From: Lachnospiraceae bacterium | Lineage (GTDB): Bacteria; Bacillota; Clostridia; Lachnospirales; Lachnospiraceae | NCBI GenBank assembly: GCA_017525525.1 | Contig: JAFXSQ010000012.1 | Location: forward strand, 1-64,000 | Direction: 5' to 3' | DNA length: 64,000 nt | In this document: positions 22,230 to 46,198 of the stretch, in pieces | Layout: each line of letters starts with the position of its first letter | Position numbering within the stretch: position 1 is the first letter of the stretch | Position numbers and translations under genes: made by a program | Notes under the pieces: model-generated | Told to the model about the DNA's origin: nothing | What the model saw: the letters and a program-made list of their open reading frames with translations, nothing else | The model's database searches: none

Positions 22230-24272
22230 ATGGACGGATCGGAATTTGTGATAAAAAAACAGCCGTACGAGGATAACTACGAAGAGAATTTTAATATTGA
22301 TCAGTATTTGGAGAAGGACGAGGAGCTTGAGAAGGGGAAGGATAGTGAATACAGACAGGCGTATAATAATCATATGACTATAGCTGAACGCGTGCAGCAG
22401 GATGTTAACCGACAGAGCGGCGGCGACAGTGAAGAAATGCGTGATGTGAAGGAAAAACTCAGCCTTGTGACAGAAACACTGAAAAACGAGATGAGCAAGG
22501 ATTTCAATGATTTTAATAATCAGCTTAAGGATACTCATATACTTTATCAAAACCTGATCAGATCCTGCGATTGTTATCTGAAGACAAAATGGAAGGCAAA
22601 GTATGCTTTGTACGGCGAGGGCAAGCGACGGAGAAAGATGGTGACAGAGCTTCGCGAATGGGCGAGGAAGGAAGCCGTATGCTTTCGGGAGGTTGCTTCA
22701 AACCGCGAACTCCACTCGCAGCGGGTCAACGGTATGCTCGTGGGTAATGCGCTTGGCAATGTGGTTCGGGATTATCTGGCAACAAAACTGTATGCCACGG
22801 TAACCGAGAGATGGAAACAGGATGAAGTATCTTACGAAACCAAAATATCGAATGAGGAGCGTGGCTTAAGCGATGTAGTTATAGTGTCGAAGCAGAGCGG
22901 TGAAAAGCCGGATTTTGTCAAGAACATGGCCGGCGCTTCGAGGTTGGCAAGGTTTATCGGTATGGAGGGCATCTGCAGACGAACGGATTTATTGATAGGC
23001 AATAATCCGGATAATAAACGTTCTTACGGAATCCGCATGGAAGGCATAATGGATAACCAGAAGACGTATCGGGAGATTAAAAAGGCGGAGAAAGGAAAGA
23101 ACCTTCGTTTTATCTACTCTCAGGATGCCATACGTCAGTTGACTGACGTAAAGCTTTTTTATCTTTTGCTCGGAGGGGAGCAGCTGGATGAAACAAGGGA
23201 AATACGTTTGATCTTCGACAGACAGGAGTATGCGGACGGCACAGTCAATTACTACGTGTCCGGCGCTTTCCTTGACAATATTATGGATGTTTTTTCAAGT
23301 GATATGGACGGAAAAGGGCTTGAAAGACGATTGAAGGAAGGAAAGGTGAATTGTCTGGATTATGAAACTGTAAGCAGCATAATGAGCATGGATCCTGACG
23401 ATCTTTCGTTTATATGCACAGACCTTTTGAGCAAGTCACAGCTGAAGGCGTTTTCTTCGCGTTTAAAAAAGCTGCAGGAGATAATAAAGCGTAACGAAAA
23501 GCCTCACAAGGAGGGCGAATTCCGCTTCACAGTCCTTAAAGGCTGGGAGGCTGACTGGGAAGAAGAGGACAACGCAAAATTACATGAGCAGATGAATGCC
23601 TTGACCGGTAACGGCAGAGAGAGCTTTCTTCCTACGCTGCTTGGAGGAAATGTGGGCTTCGACTGGAAGGGATGCGAGGGTGAGACCCAAAACGAAAAAG
23701 CATACAGGGAAGCCTATGCGGCAATTATGAAAACCACCCGGGATGCCAGAAATAACAAAAACAAAAATGGGGATATAGAAAAAGATTATAAGAAGATTAT
23801 CCGTCTTGTGGGTCAGACGTTGCTTGCTGATTCGAACTCGGCGGAGCCTGCCCGCGAACAAAACAACATTGCACTTTCAGCTCTGAAGAGATTTGTGGCT
23901 GAGAATGTGGATGAAGGTTTTTTGTGGGCATTTTTTGAAGAGGAACGCAGGGTAAATATGGAGATTCATCGTCTCATGGAAGAGAAGAAGCAGGCGGGGG
24001 AGGTTCCTAAGGAACAGCTTGCACATCTTGTTTTTGATGAGAACAGGGAGCTTGCCGAAGAAAAGAGACTGATTGAAAGCGTGTCGGAGCTTGTTACAAG
24101 CGGGCAAAGCGCGCTGCGTAATAAGAATATATACAAATTCGGGATCAGTTTTTGGGGAGAACAGATCAAATGGACGGACAAAATGGGGACGGAACGGAAA
24201 AAAGAGTATAATAAGATATCGGACGAGGTTACAGGTCTTTACAGGGAATTTGAAAAATCAAAAAAAGCATAG
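22230..24272 (+). CDS. Large charged protein, paralogue of the 1533-residue protein
   Basis: A 680-residue soluble protein without signal peptide or membrane segment; function unknown. Its residues ~65-430 match residues ~55-420 of the protein at 41160-45761. Shared blocks are EM-x-x-VK-x-x-L, the SGEKPDFVKNMAGASRLARF block against SGRKPDLVKNSAAAGRMMEY, the SYGIRMEG/YYGMKES pair, YSQDAIRQLTDVKLFYLLLG against YAPDALKMISNIKLIKLLLG, and DDLSFICTDLLSKSQLKAF against DDLSYITGDLLSKDQRRAF. Its C-terminal 240 residues are charged helices and it lacks the peptidase domain of the paralogue. The start at 22230 follows GGAGGTG. Downstream, after a 266-base gap, lies the 2103-residue protein gene. Confidence 0.75.
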   Translation: MDGSEFVIKKQPYEDNYEENFNIDQYLEKDEELEKGKDSEYRQAYNNHMTIAERVQQDVNRQSGGDSEEMRDVKEKLSLVTETLKNEMSKDFNDFNNQLKDTHILYQNLIRSCDCYLKTKWKAKYALYGEGKRRRKMVTELREWARKEAVCFREVASNRELHSQRVNGMLVGNALGNVVRDYLATKLYATVTERWKQDEVSYETKISNEERGLSDVVIVSKQSGEKPDFVKNMAGASRLARFIGMEGICRRTDLLIGNNPDNKRSYGIRMEGIMDNQKTYREIKKAEKGKNLRFIYSQDAIRQLTDVKLFYLLLGGEQLDETREIRLIFDRQEYADGTVNYYVSGAFLDNIMDVFSSDMDGKGLERRLKEGKVNCLDYETVSSIMSMDPDDLSFICTDLLSKSQLKAFSSRLKKLQEIIKRNEKPHKEGEFRFTVLKGWEADWEEEDNAKLHEQMNALTGNGRESFLPTLLGGNVGFDWKGCEGETQNEKAYREAYAAIMKTTRDARNNKNKNGDIEKDYKKIIRLVGQTLLADSNSAEPAREQNNIALSALKRFVAENVDEGFLWAFFEEERRVNMEIHRLMEEKKQAGEVPKEQLAHLVFDENRELAEEKRLIESVSELVTSGQSALRNKNIYKFGISFWGEQIKWTDKMGTERKKEYNKISDEVTGLYREFEKSKKA

Positions 24273-24538: not shown

Positions 24539-27500
24539 ATGGACGAATTATTTCAGAAAAAACTAAAGGAAGATCAGAAGAAGCATGTGAATTCTGCCAA
24601 CGAGACGAATGATCATTTTGCCGAGCGCTACGCGAAGGTAAACGAAACCATGAAGACAAATCTTCAGGAAGTGCGCACCTTTGTGGACCAGAAGGTATTT
24701 GACGGGGACATGGATAAACAGGCACAGTTAAATAAGCTTGACTATAACCATGACTTTATTTTTACCGATGTGAAGCAGAATGTATTTTCCGCAAACCGTC
24801 AGGTATACAATAATATCAAGAAATACGGCAAGGCAGAGCCGACAGCGGAAGACAAGAAAAAGAAGCTGGATATCAAGGGCTTCTTTAAGACCTTTTCAAA
24901 CAAGTGCGTGGAGAAGTTTAAGGGTAAGGAAGCGAGCTTCCAGACAGCGCTTCTTGAGACGGCAAGAGAGCAGAATGAGAATGTGGATAAAACAACCGCA
25001 TATGAGCTTTCAAAGCTTATAAACTATTCGGACGAAATAGCCAAGTATCTCGATCTGAAGAATAAGGGAGGGATAATAGCCAAGGGCTCCCTGTATAATG
25101 AGCTTGTTAAAAAGCATTTGGACAAAGTTCCGAGAACTCAGAAGAAGAAGGAAGAGGACAGACTGTACAACAAGCTCCGGTTTAAGATGCTTCCTTTTAT
25201 GAAGATGTACAAGACCAAGTGGTTTTTCGGAACCAAGTACTATAATCTGGACGGCAAGCGGTTAAAGACTAAAGACGGCGAATTAAATCCGGAGGATTAT
25301 AACAAGGCTCTTGTGGAAGCATTTATGCTTGACACGGACGCAGATAAAGTAAAAGACGCTAAAACCCTGAAGAAAAACCGTGAGAAGAAGGCTGCCGTTC
25401 TTTCAAGAATTACAAAAGAGATGATCGAATACGGCCGCAAGTTCGATCCGACGAAGATGACGGATCTCTATGTGGCAAATCATATTATCGAATTGCAGGA
25501 ATACTATGCCCGATTGAACGCCTTCCAGGATCTGGTAACGGATAACCAGTGGTTTTTCATGGGCAAGGAGGATGTCAAAAAGGAATCAAAGAAATTATTA
25601 ATGACCCCGGCCGAGCAGATCAATGCTTCTCTTGATCCGGATTTTGCTAACCTTGTAAAGACACACATTCTGGATATGCGTTTTCCGATATCGAATTTCC
25701 TGGAGGCGCATATGCGTTCGCATTGTCTGCAGGTTAATATGAATTTTAAAAATAGAGAGCATTATTTCAGGACGGATGAAAAGCTTCCGATCGTGGTTGT
25801 TGGCGAGGAAGAGGATGAAATCGATGATTTAAAATTTGAAGATAAAGCCGATTTAGATGAGATGAATGCCGATTTGAATGATGCCAAGGAAAGAAACGAA
25901 CGCTTTAAGGCATTCGGACAGGAATTCAATGTGGTAGACATGTCCAAGATGGACGTTGTGGAAGCAAAAAGATACAAGGAACGATTGAAGAAGGAAAGAG
26001 ACGACTGGAAAAACGGCGCTACCGGACAACGACTGGCAAACAGCCTTCGAAAGATCCGTTACAGACAGACCTATATGGCTTCAAAGGACGTTACCACGAT
26101 AATCAAGCCTCAGCTTGATACATTAAAGAAGAATGCGGCGGAGGATGTTCAGGCTTGGAATAAGGAACAAAAGAAAGAAAAGGATAAGTTCATCGAGATA
26201 CCCTATGCTTCTCCGCTCGGTGGAGAGTTAGCGGAAACCGTGTACGTTGACATTAATTTCATACATGACAAAATGCGTTCGGAAACCGGTACGGTCATGT
26301 ATATGCATTTTGAACCGGAAATAAAGCATATATACGGAAAGCTGTATACCGCAATCAGGCTGCAGGCAGAGTATTGTGCGCGCAAAAAGGCTATCGACCA
26401 GAAATTCAAATTCAGTGAGATACACGAATTAAAGAAGGGATTAAAGAAGAAAAACGTAGCGAAGCCATTAAGAAAATCCTGGCAGGATCAGCTTGATAAA
26501 TTAAATAAGGAGAATCTGAAAGCGGCGAAGGATGCTTCCAAAACCAAGAACACCTATGTAAAGTTCTCAGAGGATATCCTTGCGAGCACACGCCTGCAGC
26601 GCGCGGAGCAGGAATATGATGAGATTGCAAAGAAGCTTGAGTATACAATGGCACAGATTGCTGTGTGCTCTAAAACCTTAAGATTCTTCCTGTCCGATCC
26701 GACTCAGGAGCTCTTTGTAAGGGATGGCGATTATCCGATTATTGAGAAATTCCTGAAGAAGGAAAAACTCGATTATATGTATAATGTAAACAAGATAGAC
26801 GGTTTCGATAAGGTGCTTGACGAAGCACTTGAGGATACGGAAAAGGATCTTCAGGCTGAGGCAGGAAAGGATAAGAAGATACAGCCTTTAAAGAGAAGGG
26901 ACAAGAACCCGAGGGCAAGATCTGCCAGAATTAACGAGGTTCGCCGACGCGGAAGGGTGGCTGTGAATATGGAGCAGGCACAAAGAGAACGCATCGGAGA
27001 GTTCACGGATAGTGATGCTGAGTTTGACAAGCTTGTCATGATGAAACCGGAGGAGTTGTCCAGATTCAATTATAAGGGTGAGATTCCTGTTGGAACGAAG
27101 GAAGAAAGAAAAAGGATGATGGATAATGTTGCCCTGTTGAACCGCGTGATTTCAAGGGAGGGCAAGTTTAATCCGAGTTTTTATACCAAAAACAAGAATA
27201 TGGTTCCGCTCTTTCGAAAGTATAAGCAAATGGGACTCTATCCGAGAAGTTATTCGTTTTCGAAGTTTAAGAATGAAGTTCGGGTAAAGATTGAAATGCT
27301 TTACAAGTGGAATAACTATTTTGTGAACCAATTCATCAATCAGACGGATAATGATTATTTATATCTTGACACCGAAGTCTTGCAGGGCATGAGCATTCAC
27401 GCCTTAGAACTCTTGTATAATAATTTGAGCGAAAAGGCTGAGCAGTATAAAAAGGAAGCAGATGAAATTGCAAAACAGCTCGGCCGCAAGGGTGCGAAAA

Positions 27501-30500
27501 AGAATAAAAAAGAAGAAGAGAACAATCAGATCGTTATCATAAACGAGGAAAAACAGGAGGATGATAAGGATACTAAGTCCCTGGTATACAGGTACAGAAA
27601 AAACAAAGAGGACAACTGCAGAGTCCTGATGAAGGCGATTAAAAGGAAGATTGCGATGCAGAAGTCCGCGGATAACTATGTAGAATTTAGTTCCGAAGCT
27701 TACTACCGCGAATTGGATTACCTGAATCTGGAGGACGATATTGACTACGCAACAAGTGAACAATACCCTATGGCTGACCGGACATATCTTGTGTTGAGGA
27801 AATACTCTGACACAGTACAGGCTAGAAAGTACGCGTTAAGCAGTCTGGATTACAGGATTAAAGAGAAGAAAGTGAAGGATCCGAAGTATCTGGATGATGC
27901 AAAGAATATAGAAGCGGAAGCAATTGAGTTATTGGTAAGACTTCGTGAGATAAAGATTGGTCCCGAGTTTGTCGAGCTTGTGGAGAGATTATTAAAGAAG
28001 CGTTCCACTGTTCCTACGGAAGAGGAGCTGTCCACTCTGCTTTCTTATGCGACCGCAATAAATGATGCCAAATTCGTCCTTCAGGCTGATCCGGCGTTCT
28101 CGGATAAGGAGTATCTTGCTATACGCGATTACTTCTATAAAGAAGAGAATAAGCAGCTTCTCGATGAATTGAAAGAAAAATACGAGTTATTGAAGCCGTT
28201 TTATACCGCTTTTGATCACTTTGGCCAAGCCTACGACCTTTCGAGTCTGCGTGTATTCTCTATGACCGATGCGTATGCCACGGAAAAGAATAAAATCAGG
28301 GATGACAAAAAATTAAGCGTTGATGAGAAAAAGGCAAAAATCGAGGAGTTGGATTCCAAGATACGGAATACGTATTACAAAGAGTTGCAGGACTGTGATG
28401 AAGCCTGTGATGAGCTTTTTGACAATCTGAAAAAGGCCGAAGAAAAACAGCAAAAAGAGCAGGCGGACTCCATGAAGAAGCTGTTTGCGCTGGTTGCTGA
28501 GGGCGGAGAAAAGCTTGACCTTTCCAAGATGGATGAATGGAAGAAGATACTTGAAACCATTAAGGATAAGGGATACTACAAAAAGGCGCCCGAAAAGGGT
28601 AAAGAAGGAGATAAAGTATGGATGAAGGCAGCAGCGAGCCATGCTTTGTTCCTGTGGCCTCACAGCTTTGAGGATTTTGTTGCGGAGCGCGCAAAATTAG
28701 ATACAGGTAAGGCACTTGATGTGACTCTGAAAGAGAAGACAAATGCTGACATAAAGTCCTTCTCAAAGGATCCTGCGCATGCGGCCGATATTTCCGCAAC
28801 TATTACCAAGAAGCAGCAGTTTGTGTATAATTCGCTTCCGCAGGATCTGCACAAGGAATTGGATGAAAACCTGGTTCGCTCCGGTTACGATCCCAAGATT
28901 TTTAAGTATATCTTCGAGGATGTAGAGGTAAACGGTGCAGGCCTGCCTATCAATGCGGAAGAAAGCCAAAAGCGTTTCTCAAACCGTGTTCTGGCTTTAG
29001 ATTTCATAAAGCGTAATCAAAAAGCGGAGGCGGGAAAGGAAGAGCCTAAGATTACCTGGCAGAATACCGCTATAAAAGAGCTGGTGAAAGGTGCTGAATT
29101 CGAGATTAAAAAAGAGATGCTCGAGCCTGCTTACATTAAGAAGCACTTTGCTTACCTGTACGGAAAGACCAGAAAGTTTGCGGCTTTAAAGCAGATTTAT
29201 GATCATGAAAAGGATATACTTGATGATCCGGAGATATTAAAGAGAAATGGTTTTAACGCCAATCAGGCGAAGTCAGTTCATAATGCGTTCGGTCCTCAGG
29301 TCAGAAGCATGTATGCGATGTTCTTCGAGATGATAGAGGCATACGCACAAACCTATTTCGTGAATAAGGAAGGCCGCTTTGACTTCGGACTTACGAACGA
29401 AGAAATAAACGGCAAGGCAGGACAGGAGATAGATAAGGAAGCAAACAAGGAAAAGCTTCATAAAATCCAGCAGGAGAGAGATGACTACTTCAAGAGAATG
29501 ACCCGTCGCGTGGCTTCGGAAATCGAAAGAAACGATCTTGCCAAGCAGGTGGCCAAGGCCGATGAAATCAACAACACACTTGATGTAATTCAGGTACAGG
29601 GAGATGAACAGGTAGTAAAGATTGCGCGTAAGAAGGAATTCTCCGGAATTATTACCGACTTTAACTTCCTGATGTATAACCCTGAGCATGCTAAAAAAGT
29701 GCAGATGTACAACGAAGGAAACGCTGCGGTTGAAGAGGTTGAAAAGCAGATAAAGCCCCTGCGTGACGAATATGATAAGCTTGTTGCGGAAGGTAAAAAG
29801 GATGAGCCGGCGGCAGTCGAGCTCAAAGCGAAGATTGAAATGATCAATGCGGGAATGGCGCCGTTCAAGATGCAGATTGGTGAAGCTGAGTTTTATATCA
29901 AGGAACGCCAGAAAGAGTATAAGATTGTATACGAACGCTATAACGAGTGTCATAAGAAGGACGGAAGCCTGAATATTATTGAGAAACTGGAGGACGGCTC
30001 AACCAGAAATCAGATTGCAAAATATGTTGAGTTCCAGAGCCTTGTTTCAAAAAACTGTGCCGAAGTATATCGCGAATTAAAGAAGTTTTTTGGCGATAAG
30101 AAGAATCTGACAAAGGATACATTTACGGCAGATAGTATTGTAAAGCAGTTCCGGAGTTCCGAGATGGTTGAAAAGCTGCGTAACCTTCGACAGATAGACC
30201 TTTATCTATCACTTTTTGAGGTGGACAAGAAGGGCTTTAAAACCGGTGGCAGCGATGTCATGAAACAGATGAACGATTATGTGGAACAGCTTACGAAGCA
30301 AAGGAATAAGTGGCCGGAGAATTCCGGTGACCCGCTTCAGGATAGTTACAGGTCGATGCTTACCAATCAGATTAATGACACGGACAATGCAAGGAAATTC
30401 ATGTTGGAAGTCATGAAGGATATGGAAGCAGGGGAAAACGGACCTATCCGGCTGATCCATGATTATGTACGATTGGTATTCCTTACCTTAAAGTCCTACG

Positions 30501-30850
30501 GTGTAACTCTTTCGGGCGAAATTGAAGATGTAAAGATTGGCGAAGATGTAAAGGATAAGCTGACAGAGCAGCAGATCAAGAATGTTGCGTATGAAGAAGC
30601 TGACAAGATCGGTGACGCTCACCTTGAGCTGCAGCATGAGCTCAACCGGCGCCTTGGCTTCGAGGAAAACCCGCAGGCAAAAGCAAAAGCAAAACCCAAG
30701 ACAAAGCCAAAAGAAAAAACAAAAGAAAAGGAAAAGCCGAAAGCGGCTGTGAAGAGTACCAAGAAGGCGGAGCCGAAAGCAACTGAGAAGACTACCAAGA
30801 AGGCGGAGCCAAAAGCAACAGAAAAAAAGAAAGGTAAGGGAGGAAAGTAA
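24539..30850 (+). CDS. Giant coiled-coil protein with lysine-rich tail
   Basis: A 2103-residue protein, very rich in Lys, Glu, Asp and Asn, with no signal peptide or transmembrane segment visible. Long helical and coiled-coil stretches alternate with more globular blocks, for example around residues 225-250 (FMKMYKTKWFFGTKYYNL), 340-420 and 550-580 (ETVYVDINFIHDKMRSETG). The last ~55 residues are a Lys/Ala/Pro/Thr-rich tail with the 12-residue unit TKKAEPKATEK(T/K) repeated twice. The tail resembles histone-H1-like or nucleic-acid-binding tails. I do not recognise a family. The start follows GGGGGTT. A tandem-GNAT gene begins five bases after the stop, so the two are certainly co-transcribed. 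Confidence 0.75.
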   Translation: MDELFQKKLKEDQKKHVNSANETNDHFAERYAKVNETMKTNLQEVRTFVDQKVFDGDMDKQAQLNKLDYNHDFIFTDVKQNVFSANRQVYNNIKKYGKAEPTAEDKKKKLDIKGFFKTFSNKCVEKFKGKEASFQTALLETAREQNENVDKTTAYELSKLINYSDEIAKYLDLKNKGGIIAKGSLYNELVKKHLDKVPRTQKKKEEDRLYNKLRFKMLPFMKMYKTKWFFGTKYYNLDGKRLKTKDGELNPEDYNKALVEAFMLDTDADKVKDAKTLKKNREKKAAVLSRITKEMIEYGRKFDPTKMTDLYVANHIIELQEYYARLNAFQDLVTDNQWFFMGKEDVKKESKKLLMTPAEQINASLDPDFANLVKTHILDMRFPISNFLEAHMRSHCLQVNMNFKNREHYFRTDEKLPIVVVGEEEDEIDDLKFEDKADLDEMNADLNDAKERNERFKAFGQEFNVVDMSKMDVVEAKRYKERLKKERDDWKNGATGQRLANSLRKIRYRQTYMASKDVTTIIKPQLDTLKKNAAEDVQAWNKEQKKEKDKFIEIPYASPLGGELAETVYVDINFIHDKMRSETGTVMYMHFEPEIKHIYGKLYTAIRLQAEYCARKKAIDQKFKFSEIHELKKGLKKKNVAKPLRKSWQDQLDKLNKENLKAAKDASKTKNTYVKFSEDILASTRLQRAEQEYDEIAKKLEYTMAQIAVCSKTLRFFLSDPTQELFVRDGDYPIIEKFLKKEKLDYMYNVNKIDGFDKVLDEALEDTEKDLQAEAGKDKKIQPLKRRDKNPRARSARINEVRRRGRVAVNMEQAQRERIGEFTDSDAEFDKLVMMKPEELSRFNYKGEIPVGTKEERKRMMDNVALLNRVISREGKFNPSFYTKNKNMVPLFRKYKQMGLYPRSYSFSKFKNEVRVKIEMLYKWNNYFVNQFINQTDNDYLYLDTEVLQGMSIHALELLYNNLSEKAEQYKKEADEIAKQLGRKGAKKNKKEEENNQIVIINEEKQEDDKDTKSLVYRYRKNKEDNCRVLMKAIKRKIAMQKSADNYVEFSSEAYYRELDYLNLEDDIDYATSEQYPMADRTYLVLRKYSDTVQARKYALSSLDYRIKEKKVKDPKYLDDAKNIEAEAIELLVRLREIKIGPEFVELVERLLKKRSTVPTEEELSTLLSYATAINDAKFVLQADPAFSDKEYLAIRDYFYKEENKQLLDELKEKYELLKPFYTAFDHFGQAYDLSSLRVFSMTDAYATEKNKIRDDKKLSVDEKKAKIEELDSKIRNTYYKELQDCDEACDELFDNLKKAEEKQQKEQADSMKKLFALVAEGGEKLDLSKMDEWKKILETIKDKGYYKKAPEKGKEGDKVWMKAAASHALFLWPHSFEDFVAERAKLDTGKALDVTLKEKTNADIKSFSKDPAHAADISATITKKQQFVYNSLPQDLHKELDENLVRSGYDPKIFKYIFEDVEVNGAGLPINAEESQKRFSNRVLALDFIKRNQKAEAGKEEPKITWQNTAIKELVKGAEFEIKKEMLEPAYIKKHFAYLYGKTRKFAALKQIYDHEKDILDDPEILKRNGFNANQAKSVHNAFGPQVRSMYAMFFEMIEAYAQTYFVNKEGRFDFGLTNEEINGKAGQEIDKEANKEKLHKIQQERDDYFKRMTRRVASEIERNDLAKQVAKADEINNTLDVIQVQGDEQVVKIARKKEFSGIITDFNFLMYNPEHAKKVQMYNEGNAAVEEVEKQIKPLRDEYDKLVAEGKKDEPAAVELKAKIEMINAGMAPFKMQIGEAEFYIKERQKEYKIVYERYNECHKKDGSLNIIEKLEDGSTRNQIAKYVEFQSLVSKNCAEVYRELKKFFGDKKNLTKDTFTADSIVKQFRSSEMVEKLRNLRQIDLYLSLFEVDKKGFKTGGSDVMKQMNDYVEQLTKQRNKWPENSGDPLQDSYRSMLTNQINDTDNARKFMLEVMKDMEAGENGPIRLIHDYVRLVFLTLKSYGVTLSGEIEDVKIGEDVKDKLTEQQIKNVAYEEADKIGDAHLELQHELNRRLGFEENPQAKAKAKPKTKPKEKTKEKEKPKAAVKSTKKAEPKATEKTTKKAEPKATEKKKGKGGK

Positions 30851-30855
30851 GAGGC

Positions 30856-31809
30856 ATGAAATCTCGTGATAAAGAAATACCTGAAATGGAAGTATATGCA
30901 CTTCACAAATCCAATATAGACAGTTTTGAGCACCTGGTTGATCCCTCTGCCGTAGAGGTAATCAAGTGGGATGAAGCACACGGATTTTGCGTAAAGACCG
31001 ACGGCGTCCATGTGGGCGCCCTGGTCGGACGCTTTACGGATGACAAGGATTACGAGATACTTTCGCTGTTTGTCCTTCCGGAATACCGTAAGAGGGGTGT
31101 CGGAGAATTATTGCTCGAAACGCTGTGGGAGGTGCTGGATAATCTGGAGGCCAATGTGAAAATCTCCTTCCTGTGTCTATCGGACGATGAAAGCGAGCTG
31201 GCGGATTTTCTGGAGAAAAACGGCTTTGAGGAATACAGGAACATGAACAGCCATGTATTTGCCGTGACCATCGAGGAGCTTAAAAAGACGAAGCTTTTCG
31301 CAGATAAGGTAAGCGTACACTTCCCGAATTTTAACGATCTTACGAAGGCTCAGCTCACTGCGCTCGACAACTTAACCGGGGCAGGGTTTGTTCCGAAGCC
31401 GGACGGAGGCTTTACTTCAAAGCAGATTGAAAAGGAAATGAGCGCCGCGTTCTTCAAGAGAGGCAAGCCGGTTGCGTATGCGGTAATTGAGCGTGAGAAT
31501 GACGACCTGCTTATTCTTTCGTCGTTATATGTAAGTGAGAAGGAGCCCCCCGCAACGCTGATGAAGCTGCTTCGAAGCGTGCTGGAAGCGCTTGATGAAA
31601 AGTATACGGAAGACACTGTGCTCCTGCTCCCGACTGTCAATGAGGATTCGGAGCGGCTGTTCTCCGATCTTTTCGAGGATGTGTTTGAAAAAGAAGATGT
31701 GTTCTGCACCTATCAGCGCTTCTATCCCGGGCGCAGGGAACCGGATTACGAAGCGGGAACGCTCTCGGATTTTTTGTACACGGAAGAGGAATTGCTTACA
31801 GGTATGTAA
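30856..31809 (+). CDS. Tandem-GNAT acetyltransferase-like protein
   Basis: A 317-residue protein with two GNAT-fold halves. The first (residues ~15-140) keeps motif A, LFVLPEYRKRGVGELLLETL, so it can bind acetyl-CoA. The second (~150-300) has lost motif A (LYVSEKEPPATLMKLLRSVL) and ends VFCTYQRFY. It begins five bases after the stop of the 2103-residue protein, so a modifier-substrate link with its lysine-rich neighbour is conceivable but unproven. The similar protein at 59448-60311 has the same two-half layout. Confidence 0.8.
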   Translation: MKSRDKEIPEMEVYALHKSNIDSFEHLVDPSAVEVIKWDEAHGFCVKTDGVHVGALVGRFTDDKDYEILSLFVLPEYRKRGVGELLLETLWEVLDNLEANVKISFLCLSDDESELADFLEKNGFEEYRNMNSHVFAVTIEELKKTKLFADKVSVHFPNFNDLTKAQLTALDNLTGAGFVPKPDGGFTSKQIEKEMSAAFFKRGKPVAYAVIERENDDLLILSSLYVSEKEPPATLMKLLRSVLEALDEKYTEDTVLLLPTVNEDSERLFSDLFEDVFEKEDVFCTYQRFYPGRREPDYEAGTLSDFLYTEEELLTGM

Positions 31810-41159: not shown

Positions 41160-44100
41160 ATGGACGAGAACAATATACATGCAGAGAGAGAAATAATCGA
41201 TCATCATGAGGTTCAGGATAAGGAGCAGCTGGATGTAAAGAACCGTTATGCGCTTGAAATGCAGGCGCACAATACGGCTGTGAATAATCTCAACGCTGCG
41301 AGAAAGAAAAATGACGCGACTGACAGCACAGAGATGCAGAACGTAAAGGCATGTCTGACGCAGGTAAATACTACCCTGAACAAGCAGATAGCCGGAGATT
41401 TTGATGCCTTCAAATTGCAGATTCTTGAGCTTTCCGAGGAATACAAGCAGCTGATCGCCGCGTGTGAAACATATTTGTCTGAAAAATCGATGGCAAAATA
41501 CCGCTACTTTACCAGAGGTAAAAAGAGATATGAAAGGGTTAAGGCGCTTCTTGCGGTTGCTAAAAAAGAAAGTATAGAGATAAGGAATCTCGGAAAAAAC
41601 AGGGAATTGTTTGATATGCGTATGGAAGGCGCGCTTGTGGGCACCGCGCTTGTGCATTCGCTTAGGGATAATGCCGCATTGGATACTAAGCTTAACCTGG
41701 CGGCCGAAGGATGGGTTCAGCAGGGTAATCTGCGCATGAAGATGATAGGTGATAAGAAGTACACCATGTCAAGGCGTTCCGGGAGAAAACCTGATTTAGT
41801 GAAGAATTCGGCGGCAGCAGGACGTATGATGGAATACATGGGAGCGGAGATGTTCGGTAACGAACCGGCTCTTGTATTGGCGCGCGAAAGGAATTCGGCA
41901 TATTACGGTATGAAGGAATCAAGGAAAGGGGATATGCTTACCATGAGCCAGATTGAGGAACAGGCAGGCGGCAATCCGGACATAACCTATGCACCTGATG
42001 CGCTTAAAATGATTTCCAATATCAAGCTGATCAAGCTGCTTTTAGGCATTGAAAACTTCGATGCGAAGAACGATATAGCATTTTCTTATGAGATAAAGAA
42101 TGTAAAGGGCAAATCGGTTTACCTGATCAACTCTGCCCGGATATGTAATTTCTCCAAAGCATTTTCAAAGAACATAACAAGAAGAACTTTGCAGCAGGAA
42201 ATCGGGGAAACCAATATCGCCCTTGCCGATTTGGAGTTGTGTAACTTTATACGTTATATTGAAGCAGATGATCTCAGTTATATAACAGGTGATCTTCTGA
42301 GCAAGGATCAAAGAAGGGCTTTCATGGGTCGGCTTGAATTTATAAAGGAACGGATTCAGCACAGTGCTGTAAATGATATCGATGAGTGGGAGAACGGTCT
42401 TCATAAGATAGATTCGGATGATTGGGAAGATAAGGGAATAAGAGACAAAGTCTGTGGCCAGATCATGAAAGATAGTCACAGCTCATTTTCGGTGCTCTTT
42501 GGGGCTAATTGCCATATGGAAGGAAAGAAGGGCGACAGTATCTGGGAGGCTGAGGAGGAAGAAAAGGAGAATCAGCGTCGTGAGGCGGAAAGACTCAGAT
42601 TACAGGAGGAAGAGCGTAAGAGAGAAGAAGCGCGCAGGCAGGAAGAAGAACGTAAGAGGCAGGAAGAGGAACGTCAGAAGGAACTGGCGAGAAAGTATCA
42701 GCAATTCCTTAAAGAGGAAGAAGAGCATATGAAACAACTCCGGATCAGGGCGGCGGAAGAAGAACGTAAGAGAAAGGAAGAAGAGGCGCGTCTGGAGAAG
42801 GAAAGGATAGAACGAGAGAAGGAAGAAGCGCGCAGAAAAAAGGAAGAAGAGGAACGACGGGAGAAGGAAAGGATAGAGCGTGAGAAGGAAGAAGCACGTC
42901 GAAGAGAAGAGGCAGAGCGTCATCAAAAGGAGTATAGAGAAGCATACTGGAACGAAAGCGAAAAATCCCGTATAGAAGAGGAACAAAAAAGCAAGGAAGA
43001 AAAAGAGAGCAAAGCTCGCAAGAAGGAAGAAAACAGGAAGAAACGCAAGTTCAAAAGGGATGCTAAGCTTGTTGAAGAGATCAACAAAGCAAAAGAGGAG
43101 TACGAAGAGAGAGAAAAAGAAGACGACATAGTCAATTACGAGACAAAAATCCTGAGCCTTTATACAAAGGAGGAGATTAAAGAGGCAGTTATCAACGGAG
43201 CGAGAGAAACTGAGCTTGATGAGAAACTGAAAAACTTCCTTGAACAACGAGAGGAGATAAAAAAATACAGCGCTAAAGTTAACGAATTATGGAAAGAACG
43301 AGATGAAAACGGAGAAATAGACGAGTTTGCTGATGATGTGCCGTTTATCAATTTGAGTGATAAAAAACAGGCAGAGATGGTTGCAAAGGAGAAAGAGAGA
43401 TTTAGAAAATTCTTCTATAGCACCGTTAAACCGTTTTATGATTTGTACATCAGTATGCTCAAACAGCAGGAAATCTGTATTCTCAGGGGTAATCTTTCCG
43501 GCAAATTCGAGGACAGATTATATAAAGCGGATCAATTGATAAAGGTCATAAAAAAAGCGTGTAAAGAACCAAAAGGGGATCTGCTGCTCATCCATAATCA
43601 TGAGGCTTATGGGCAAGAACTCGATGCGGAATTACTGATTCTTGAAGACATGGAAAATCAGAGGACGGAATTAAAAACGTATCTGAAACAATTACGTAAA
43701 CGATGCAGTGAAAACGCAAGGAACTTGAGAGCGGAACATGACAGATGCCTTAGTGAGGTGCGCTATGCAAAGGATGAAGACCGCTCGGAGGAGAAGGTAA
43801 GAGAGATAGATCAGCTTACAAAAGAGCTTGTTGAATTAAAAAACAGCGGAAAAGAAAAGAAAGAATTCCGGGAGAAGGAAAATGAAATTCTTGCGGATTA
43901 TAAGAGACGCGGTCTTACTTTAGAACAGCTGACGGAAGAAGAGTTTGACGATATAAAGTATGTGAATGAGCGTTTTGCCTATAAGCTTTATATTGATTAC
44001 ATAAGCAGAAACCGTAATCTGCTGAAGAAGGAGATAATCGAACAGGATAAAGATGGCGCTGTTCTGTTCGACAAGACGAGAGTGAATGCTTCTTCCCACA

Positions 44101-45761
44101 AGAGGGAGGACGACGGAAGTATAAGCTATATTTCATGTATTAAATGTGATAATACGGAAGAGCTTAAAAAAGATGGAATACTGGCAGATGCAGGCGGAGA
44201 GATTAACTGCCGGGTATATCCGTGTCCGAACAGTATTCGATGGACTAACAACAGCGAACAGGGGGCTGATAATAATTATCTCGGAATCAGCGGAACCTGC
44301 GGCCCCTCATCCATGTCGCAGATCGTAAACCAAATTTATGGTATGAATATCACGAATGAGAGCTTTAATCTCTATCTGCTTAAGAAGTTTTCCGGTTTCA
44401 ATGTGAACAGGCTGCCGGACAGGGATGAAAACGGAGTGGTTAAGGCAGAGGATGGCGTTAGGCTTAATCTTGAACATTGCGGCGGAACTGATGAGGAAAA
44501 TATGTCCGATATTCTGGAAATCTTCGGCATAAAGCACAAGGTATACAATAAAAAACTCTCTCCTGCTAATTCGGAGGAAAATCGGGATAAGGCAACCGGA
44601 CTTGATAATGACCTGCTGTTGTTTGCCGAGACATTGAAAAAGGGTGGTTCTGTTCAGGTGGCCATACGATCCGAAATTCTTTGGAACAAGGGTGAGGATC
44701 CGAGAAATAAGGAAGGCTTCTATGATGATAAACCCTACAGACTGAGAGAACAGATGAGAGAGGGGTTGATATACTCAAACCATTGGATCAACCTTTGCGG
44801 CGTGTGCTACCAGAATGAGGAACTGTCCGGTTTTATCTATAAGGATACCGGCTCCGGGAAGTCGGGTTTTGTTTCCGCAAAGCTTTTGGATAAAGCATAC
44901 AGGGGTATTCAGGACAAAGACAATCCTCTTTCAATCATATCAGGCGATTTTCTTCTTGTTGAGAAGTCAGAGCATGCGAAGGAAATTGAACGTTTGACGT
45001 ACAGTGAGAAGGAAAACCGGATGCTTGATGATATTGTGAAAAACACGGATGAAATGGTTCGTATATTGCTTGAATATGAAAATCTGATTACAGATCTGAA
45101 GAACAGACTGGATGGTTTGCAATTCGTTGATGAGGAGGCTTACAAGAATAGGAGTGAGATAGAGAAAAAATGGAAGAAAAATGAAGCTGATTTTAAAACG
45201 CTGACAAAGGATAGCAAAACATTTGAGGCGATAAAGAAAAGAGATGCCTGTGCCGTAGTTCTTAATCAAAGAAAGGAGAACGCAGAAAGAGCAAACAAAA
45301 TATGGGATAGTCTTATAGATACATATAGGCCGTTAGTTACAGATAAGGTGAAAAAGGCAAGTAAAACAATTGAAGCCGAATTCCCGGGAACTAAACTGAC
45401 AACAGTAGGGGTAGTGAATTCCAGAATGTTCGATGCTTTCTTCAAAGAATGGGAGAAGGAAATCGGCTCAGCGGATTATACGGAGGAAAAACACGCAGAG
45501 TGGTTTAAGAAGATAGAAGACATAAGGAAGACATATACGGATGCGATGGAGAGGTATTACGATCTTTTAGAGAAAGACGGTGTCAATATTCGAACTTATA
45601 AGCTTATGCGAGACTGCACGTTCTTTGACAGAAAGGTTATCTGGGCAAGGAAAACGATAACCAAATGGATCGAAATACTTGAGAAAAAGCATAAGGACGT
45701 CTTTGACAAGTATAAGAAACCCGAAGTTGAGTCTGAGGAAGGAAAGCAGGTGAAGGCATGA
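41160..45761 (+). CDS. Large multidomain protein with C39/papain-like peptidase domain
   Basis: A 1533-residue protein, not described as far as I recognise. Residues ~55-420 are paralogous to the protein at 22230-24272 (see there). Residues ~465-690 are an uninterrupted Glu/Lys/Arg-rich helix, whose DNA contains near-repeats of a 30-40 base unit. Residues ~690-1000 are coiled. Residues ~1015-1290 look like a cysteine peptidase of C39 or papain-like fold: GTCGPSSMSQIVNQ with Cys1047, NHWINLCGV with His1208 and KDTGSG with Asp1229. The Cys-Gly-Pro-Ser and His-Trp-x-x-Leu patterns are typical of C39-like enzymes. A further ~240-residue helical region ends the protein. No signal peptide or membrane segment is visible. 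Its stop overlaps the ATG of the next gene. Confidence 0.75.
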   Translation: MDENNIHAEREIIDHHEVQDKEQLDVKNRYALEMQAHNTAVNNLNAARKKNDATDSTEMQNVKACLTQVNTTLNKQIAGDFDAFKLQILELSEEYKQLIAACETYLSEKSMAKYRYFTRGKKRYERVKALLAVAKKESIEIRNLGKNRELFDMRMEGALVGTALVHSLRDNAALDTKLNLAAEGWVQQGNLRMKMIGDKKYTMSRRSGRKPDLVKNSAAAGRMMEYMGAEMFGNEPALVLARERNSAYYGMKESRKGDMLTMSQIEEQAGGNPDITYAPDALKMISNIKLIKLLLGIENFDAKNDIAFSYEIKNVKGKSVYLINSARICNFSKAFSKNITRRTLQQEIGETNIALADLELCNFIRYIEADDLSYITGDLLSKDQRRAFMGRLEFIKERIQHSAVNDIDEWENGLHKIDSDDWEDKGIRDKVCGQIMKDSHSSFSVLFGANCHMEGKKGDSIWEAEEEEKENQRREAERLRLQEEERKREEARRQEEERKRQEEERQKELARKYQQFLKEEEEHMKQLRIRAAEEERKRKEEEARLEKERIEREKEEARRKKEEEERREKERIEREKEEARRREEAERHQKEYREAYWNESEKSRIEEEQKSKEEKESKARKKEENRKKRKFKRDAKLVEEINKAKEEYEEREKEDDIVNYETKILSLYTKEEIKEAVINGARETELDEKLKNFLEQREEIKKYSAKVNELWKERDENGEIDEFADDVPFINLSDKKQAEMVAKEKERFRKFFYSTVKPFYDLYISMLKQQEICILRGNLSGKFEDRLYKADQLIKVIKKACKEPKGDLLLIHNHEAYGQELDAELLILEDMENQRTELKTYLKQLRKRCSENARNLRAEHDRCLSEVRYAKDEDRSEEKVREIDQLTKELVELKNSGKEKKEFREKENEILADYKRRGLTLEQLTEEEFDDIKYVNERFAYKLYIDYISRNRNLLKKEIIEQDKDGAVLFDKTRVNASSHKREDDGSISYISCIKCDNTEELKKDGILADAGGEINCRVYPCPNSIRWTNNSEQGADNNYLGISGTCGPSSMSQIVNQIYGMNITNESFNLYLLKKFSGFNVNRLPDRDENGVVKAEDGVRLNLEHCGGTDEENMSDILEIFGIKHKVYNKKLSPANSEENRDKATGLDNDLLLFAETLKKGGSVQVAIRSEILWNKGEDPRNKEGFYDDKPYRLREQMREGLIYSNHWINLCGVCYQNEELSGFIYKDTGSGKSGFVSAKLLDKAYRGIQDKDNPLSIISGDFLLVEKSEHAKEIERLTYSEKENRMLDDIVKNTDEMVRILLEYENLITDLKNRLDGLQFVDEEAYKNRSEIEKKWKKNEADFKTLTKDSKTFEAIKKRDACAVVLNQRKENAERANKIWDSLIDTYRPLVTDKVKKASKTIEAEFPGTKLTTVGVVNSRMFDAFFKEWEKEIGSADYTEEKHAEWFKKIEDIRKTYTDAMERYYDLLEKDGVNIRTYKLMRDCTFFDRKVIWARKTITKWIEILEKKHKDVFDKYKKPEVESEEGKQVKA

Positions 45762-46198
45762 AGCTTGGAGATATAGAAGAAAAGATATGGGATATGCGGG
45801 AATTTAAAGGAAAAGGCGGCCCGGAGAAGGGAGTTTCATTCCCACTTTTCAGAGAAACCTCGGAAGGAGGCTTTATAGTGCATATGGTATATGAGGACAG
45901 CGCTTATATTCCTTCGGGTTTTGTGCTCACAAAGCTGCCTGGCGGTGATCCCGTTTATTACGGGATTTCGGATGGTTTGAGGCTTCTCGGCATGAAAGCG
46001 GATGATTTTAAGAGAAGCGGGGATGTGGACCGTGAACCGGCGCGCGACCCGGACGAAATGAATGAGTATACGGTAGAGTCTTTTTATCGCCTCGTATCTC
46101 AACCCGACTTTGACAGGGACATATACGCGGGATATGTATATTCAATCCTGCCGTTCCTTGAGCCGAGAGAGAGAATGTACTATAAAGCATTTATATAA
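45758..46198 (+). CDS. Small acidic protein coupled to the peptidase-domain protein
   Basis: A 146-residue protein, translationally coupled to the upstream gene (ATGA overlap). It contains FKGKGGPEKGVSFPLFRE, a VYYGISDGLRLLGM segment and ends LEPRERMYYKAFI. No family was recognised. The size, acidity and coupling are those of immunity proteins, chaperones or adaptors of a larger partner, but this is inference from arrangement only. Confidence 0.7.
   Translation: MKLGDIEEKIWDMREFKGKGGPEKGVSFPLFRETSEGGFIVHMVYEDSAYIPSGFVLTKLPGGDPVYYGISDGLRLLGMKADDFKRSGDVDREPARDPDEMNEYTVESFYRLVSQPDFDRDIYAGYVYSILPFLEPRERMYYKAFI

Follow-up and report, generated by a model that had tools for sequence, protein, structure and literature searches.

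A papain-like Cys-His-Asp domain in a giant protein of a Lachnospiraceae bacterium, a putative cargo of a contractile injection system

In a 64,000-nt stretch of the genome of a Lachnospiraceae bacterium (assembly GCA_017525525.1, contig JAFXSQ010000012.1, positions 1–64,000; hereafter, the window), we examined a giant protein of 1533 amino acids (ORF at positions 41160–45761, on the forward strand like all the window features given below; start MDENN), which carries a Cys-His-Asp domain. The triad is conserved among the relatives of the domain, the N-terminal part of the protein has a kinase fold, and the same genome encodes the core genes and the ATPase of an extracellular contractile injection system (eCIS). 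Furthermore, the N-terminal module and the eCIS co-occur within the genus, and the domain and a small downstream gene form a conserved two-gene unit. We propose that the domain is a papain-fold enzyme carried as the payload of a giant eCIS cargo protein, and assign this explanation as a whole a probability of approximately 0.55.

The Cys-His-Asp domain and its fold

The domain covers residues ~1038–1275 (44271–44984), as judged from the triad, the alignment, the structural model, and the structural neighbors. The initial annotation had named Cys1047, His1208, and Asp1229, and all three occur at these places in the ORF: GTCGPSSMSQIVNQ begins at residue 1045, the His lies in NHWINLCGV, and the Asp lies in KDTGSG, with the proposed His–Asp spacing of 21 residues. 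Cys1047 (44298–44300), the putative nucleophile, is followed by a predicted helix; His1208 (44781–44783), the putative catalytic base, lies within a predicted strand; and Asp1229 (44844–44846, in KDTG), the putative third residue, ends the next predicted strand. An alignment of five sequences from four genera was compiled from the window and four relatives, in genomes G027, G616, G636, and G674, with 47, 26, 25, and 26% identity, respectively, to the window domain. It contains 16 invariant columns, which include the three triad residues, GGT at 1108–1110, and Asn1039 (44274–44276), which lies eight residues before Cys1047 and may be an oxyanion-hole residue. Because the triad accounts for three of these 16 columns across such a set, its conservation exceeds chance and argues for a catalytic triad under selection. 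The G027 relative, from the same genus, is a protein of 1498 amino acids with the same architecture (48% identity over residues 1–461 and 33% over 663–1476); the domain itself is 51% identical over the aligned residues, and other parts are 29–51% identical. The domain lies in the interior of the protein in the window and in G027, and at the C-terminus in G616, G636, and G674.

Relatives of the domain are sparse. A family-wide draw gave matches in 9 of 397 genomes at E ≤0.01, of which we accepted the window's own genome (G000) and the four above (E ≤1.6e−8) and dropped the short matches in G456, G717, G457, and G632 (E 0.002–0.007), together with another match within the window protein itself. 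In an order-wide draw, only the own genome and G027 matched at E ≤0.001 (2/392), and among the 36 other genomes of the genus, a clear relative was found only in G027. Four further matches from the genus search (G058, G054, G041, and G031; E 0.0016–0.046) were dropped; the stretch read in G058 was of low complexity, and the match in G031 lay inside a gene that is nuclease-like by its look. No relative was found for the domain among phages and viral contigs or, when it was searched alone, among genome contigs, nor for the whole giant among plasmids.

The domain matched no Pfam family at E ≤10 and no NCBIfam model. For the giant as a whole, Pfam detected no domain, although its N-terminal part gave a few sub-threshold chance matches, and the Cys domain had no hit in the NCBIfam and PADLOC scans. 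When the domain sequence was searched against solved structures, nothing meaningful came up either. The structural model of the domain is of low confidence (pLDDT, predicted local distance difference test, 39), and its predicted order is a helix after the Cys, a strand holding the His, and a strand ending at the Asp; the placement of the Cys at a helix start in the initial annotation thus agrees with this low-confidence model alone. Most of the best structural matches to the model were papain-fold proteins, C39 domains among them, and the model weakly supports a papain fold for this stretch. The initial annotation had called the domain C39/papain-like. Because the triad is retained, the predicted order fits, and the neighbors have papain folds, the papain-like part of this assignment is upheld, whereas membership in C39 is not, since no family model matches. 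We consider the domain very probably an active papain-fold cysteine enzyme and most likely a peptidase; its sequence family is represented by no Pfam or NCBIfam model. The same triad would also suit a papain-fold enzyme that is not a peptidase, such as a deamidase, transglutaminase, or acyltransferase; the sequence itself discriminates nothing here, but 32 of the 50 structural neighbors are peptidases by title, and we regard this alternative as the less likely one, though a serious contender.

N-terminal module, injection system, and downstream partner

Residues 1–36 of the giant (41160–41267) form a variable and very hydrophilic tail, which is 29% identical to that of the G027 protein; the mean Kyte–Doolittle hydropathy of the first 35 residues is −1.34, and visual inspection reveals no Sec-type signal peptide. 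Toxins with hydrophilic N-termini have been described in association with eCISs (PMC11297309), and the AAA+ ATPase Pvc15 loads cargo via disordered N-terminal signal peptides of 50–70 residues (PMC11495950). The tail fits both descriptions and is a candidate loading signal. It is followed by a module common to paralogous giants (residues 37–460, 41268–42539), which consists of a helical part and then a kinase fold of the PI4K/CtkA/Fam20/HipA type (residues ~170–416, 41667–42407). The model of residues 37–460 has a pLDDT of 82.9 and a pTM (predicted template modeling score) of 0.83, with residues 37–53 under pLDDT 50. The own genome holds three copies of the module. An alignment of eight sequences (A2) has no invariant Lys, Asp, or Asn at positions 193–300, the segment where the catalytic residues would be expected, so that the module is probably a pseudokinase without catalytic activity. 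Beyond it, residues ~471–640 (42570–43079) are rich in Glu, Lys, and Arg, as read from the translation, and presumably form a coiled coil.

A paralog of 680 amino acids in the window (22230–24272; 32% identity, E 1.4e−48) has the same module and no Cys domain. Searching genome contigs with the module recovered three rumen metagenome-assembled genomes (RUG12831, RUG655, and RUG12564). A giant in G027 (L026:5605–9429, contig C1) has, besides the module, another related copy close to the C-terminus, in which Pfam weakly detects Fam20C (E 0.028); pieces of the module also lie in two overlapping frames beside another giant (L030:669–1858, G016:C128), likely as a broken copy.

The own genome encodes an eCIS: contig C30 holds Pvc16_N, DUF4280, sheath, gp19 tube, CIS_tube, Phage_base_V, and gp25 genes, and contig C50 holds the ATPase (8 of the 10 proteins scanned gave a match). 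G027 likewise encodes an eCIS and an AAA+ ATPase; the latter, with a PF22977 winged-helix domain, stands within an array of giants. Among the 37 genomes of the genus, PF22977 was found in 7, the phage-sheath family in 7, and either of these contractile injection system (CIS) markers in 8. All five genomes with the N-terminal module are among these 8 (p 1.3e−4; with the sheath alone, 4/5, p 0.0025), the two markers having been pooled after inspection and the p-values here and below ignoring phylogeny. Across the family, Pvc16_N occurs in 25 of 299 genomes and the module in 10, with an overlap of 5 (p 5e−4); when the own genus is left out, the overlap is 3 of 8 (p 0.018). Weak family-level matches were counted in these values unchanged: the five module genomes that lack Pvc16_N have weak matches, and two of the five with Pvc16_N (G431 and G530) have equally weak ones.

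In G027, the sheath gene and a giant with the module are 58 kb apart. The giant belongs to a stretch in which 43 of the 45 ORFs (≥150 amino acids, called mechanically) run in the same direction; overlapping loci count some ORFs twice. The Cys-domain gene is on a different contig from the CIS genes in both genomes of the genus (C17 versus C30 and C50 in the own genome; C4 versus C1 in G027). In G674, which belongs to a different genus, the CIS genes lie on the same contig as the Cys-domain gene, ~52 kb away, and further giants and a GNAT gene occur near the latter. A tblastn search of G674 with 12 CIS proteins of the own genome found 8, including Pvc16 (78%), sheath (78%), tube (87%), and spike (53%). 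This stretch, which ends inside the CIS cluster, gave no match for one baseplate protein, the two AAA proteins, or the 2181-aa protein.

The partner gene (146 amino acids, 45758–46198), a putative immunity protein or chaperone, overlaps the stop of the giant by 4 bases. The G027 partner is 48% identical to it, and G674 has a homolog of 140 amino acids at the same place (E 3e−13 against the G027 partner and 3e−7 against that of the window); a profile of the window and G027 partners finds the G674 partner at 4e−11, compared with 0.064 for the best of 2000 shuffled decoys. In G616 and G636, genes of 158 and 160 amino acids occupy the partner position and are homologous to one another, not detectably to the other three. 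The enzyme domain and a small downstream gene occur together in all five carriers. Within the 37 genus genomes, an intact partner was found solely beside this giant, in the own genome and G027. In G030 (L107, G030:C174), just the last 19 residues of the partner remain, and the genes on either side are those found around the unit in G027; from their look, we take these to be ArsC-like and GH3-like. The own genome has a separate partner remnant (L108, G000:C67:15050). Because remnants persist and the intact partner stands only beside the giant, the enzyme and partner appear to be gained and lost as a unit. Whether the partner confers immunity rather than acting as a chaperone we regard as evenly balanced.

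We consider the giant somewhat likely to be a cargo of the injection system. In the mechanism proposed, the AAA+ ATPase of the system would recognize the hydrophilic tail, and the giant would then join the phage-tail-like particle, either packed inside or fixed to it. Upon contraction, the giant would enter a target cell, where the domain would cut or modify a target protein. The kinase-fold module, common to many giants and probably non-catalytic, may serve docking or packaging, and the product of the small downstream gene would protect the producer from the enzyme (immunity) or aid the folding and loading of the latter. The initial annotation had preferred a self-cleaving or target-directed enzyme; the CIS context, which was invisible to it, favors the target-directed option.

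The enzyme may instead be an intracellular regulatory or self-processing protease that is never delivered and that cleaves the giant or acts in the producer, with the partner as an ordinary protease inhibitor. Several observations weigh on this side and against delivery, chief among them those on two of the five carriers. G616 and G636 hold the enzyme and a small partner with no Pvc16_N detected, and their pairs (L115:5757–7323 and L116:7619–8677, respectively) lie beside genes of other kinds, namely zinc-ribbon/YARHG and SPFH/Band_7 genes. With no eCIS marker detected in these two, the pair may predate its role in eCIS cargo and be more widespread than that role. The giant also has no apparent canonical export signal. 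However, three of the five carriers are in CIS-positive genomes, the N-terminal module tracks the CIS in the genus, and a cassette that is gained and lost, as the remnant in G030 indicates, is unlike a housekeeping regulator. We therefore consider an undelivered protease rather unlikely and favor the eCIS cargo.

Other giant proteins and their neighbors

The window encodes another giant of the same general kind (2103 amino acids, 24539–30850, MDE start), directly followed by a GNAT-fold protein (30856–31809; Pfam Acetyltransf_1, E 1.1e−13). A 2080-aa protein of G027 looks related to this giant, as judged by eye from both ends and the shared following GNAT gene. The arrangement is recurrent: five of the six giant neighbors scanned had a Pfam GNAT match, the gene at L026:9447 having none. 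Genes of ~280–320 amino acids follow giants in the window (24539–31809) and at L062, L069, and L061; they are mostly GNAT-fold where scanned and may serve the giants as adaptors or chaperones. Of the 56 ORFs of at least 600 amino acids in the loci examined, 18 start with MD, versus 9 of the 177 smaller ORFs, with start codons called mechanically; because these loci were picked for holding giants or CIS genes, the counts are descriptive and carry no significance test.

A 1340-aa giant adjoining the eCIS ATPase in G027 (L069:14418–18440, contig C1) ends in a papain-like domain of another type (GCWS, GGHF, YDS). Four of the 37 genus genomes, each of them one of the 8 that have a CIS marker, contain relatives of this GCWS-type domain. 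Of the four aligned members, two have the Cys and two lack it, so that dead versions do occur in such giants. By analogy, the Cys-His-Asp domain of the window might be an inactive relative retained as a binding module, but Cys, His, and Asp are retained in all five of its sequences, three of which are at ~26% identity, and we find this improbable. Profile comparisons gave E 0.29 (hhalign) for the domain against three C39 proteins of the own genome and nothing significant for the domain against the second papain-like family or for the 146-aa partner against the GNAT partners; because the query alignments had 2 rows only, these are weak tests.

In G674, a 1405-aa giant beside the C39-like one (L117:903–5120, contig C7) contains DIRQGLIGNCYMM and later GSHEMSIL, and by its look it may be a calpain-type enzyme. 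Finally, a protein of 2100–2180 amino acids lies in the CIS clusters of three genomes (L088:3432–9977, L090:7153–13482, and L091:6183–12521), between a second gene of ~810–870 amino acids and the gene for an AAA+ ATPase with a winged-helix domain; it is possibly a core component rather than cargo.

A broader reading, which we advance only tentatively, is that rumen Lachnospiraceae have CISs with a large repertoire of giant (~700–2200 aa), modular cargo. The giants would share a short hydrophilic MD[E/N/Q/S] start, and one group would have a pseudokinase-fold docking module. Their cargo ends would include three apparently distinct papain-fold families (C39-like, GCWS type, and calpain-like). 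A dedicated helper gene would typically follow, usually encoding a GNAT-fold adaptor or chaperone rather than an acetyltransferase. The C39-like enzyme would have a special immunity partner of 140–160 amino acids, gained and lost with it as a cassette.

Comparison with known systems

CISs and their toxins are already known from many bacteria, clostridial Firmicutes included. For example, one paper lists Firmicutes among the sources of eCIS toxins, one being a toxin of the clostridial Ruminiclostridium cellulolyticum (PMC8213781). The main text of PMC11297309 mentions papain twice and C39, Lachnospira, and Firmicutes not at all, and the main text of a metagenome survey of CISs mentions neither Lachnospir, rumen, Bacillota, nor Clostridia (PMC12210884). 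In the literature searched, some of it accessible in part, no printed account of CISs in Lachnospiraceae or the rumen was found. If our reading is true, a gut bacterium of the rumen, a habitat with competition among protozoa, fungi, and bacteria, uses such syringes with giant papain-fold enzymes. The enzyme–partner pair is compact and directly testable, and the shared N-terminus offers a testable loading signal.

The domain resembles C39 and C39_2 peptidases (PF03412 and PF13529) in its Cys-His-Asp order, the Cys at a helix start, the His in a hydrophobic strand, and the Asp after the next strand, and the C39-type domains of HlyB, ComA, and PCAT1 are among its structural neighbors. It differs in lacking a hidden Markov model match (in the own genome, Peptidase_C39_2 finds three genuine copies, on C57, C62, and C63, and not C17), in its longer Cys–His spacing (161 and 147 residues versus 74–123 in these three proteins), and in its setting, a giant protein that also has a kinase fold and, according to Pfam, no ATP-binding cassette (ABC) transporter domain. 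The last point bears out the initial remark that the protein is unlike bacteriocin-processing C39 enzymes, and despite the shared residue order and neighbors, these differences make it very improbable that the domain is a genuine C39 enzyme cleaving the leader of a bacteriocin-like peptide. To staphopain, GtgE, and other papain-fold enzymes of clan CA, the domain is just 10–13% identical, its model is of low confidence, and the protein architecture is different. The kinase fold differs from PI4K type II, CtkA, Fam20, and HipA in that the expected catalytic segment holds no Lys, Asp, or Asn that is invariant. A papain-like toxin/immunity pair (PDB 9l5u) and CdiA-CT/CdiI (8ssm) differ from the present pair, whose enzyme lies inside the protein in two carriers and at its C-terminus in three, and whose partner is a putative inhibitor. 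From the eCIS-associated toxins and effectors (PMC11297309 and PMC8213781; PVC and Afp cargo), the giant differs in lying on a contig other than that of the CIS genes in its own genome, in its kinase-fold module, and in its packaging, which is putative; it resembles them in its hydrophilic N-terminus and in coming from a genome that encodes an eCIS with an AAA+ ATPase.
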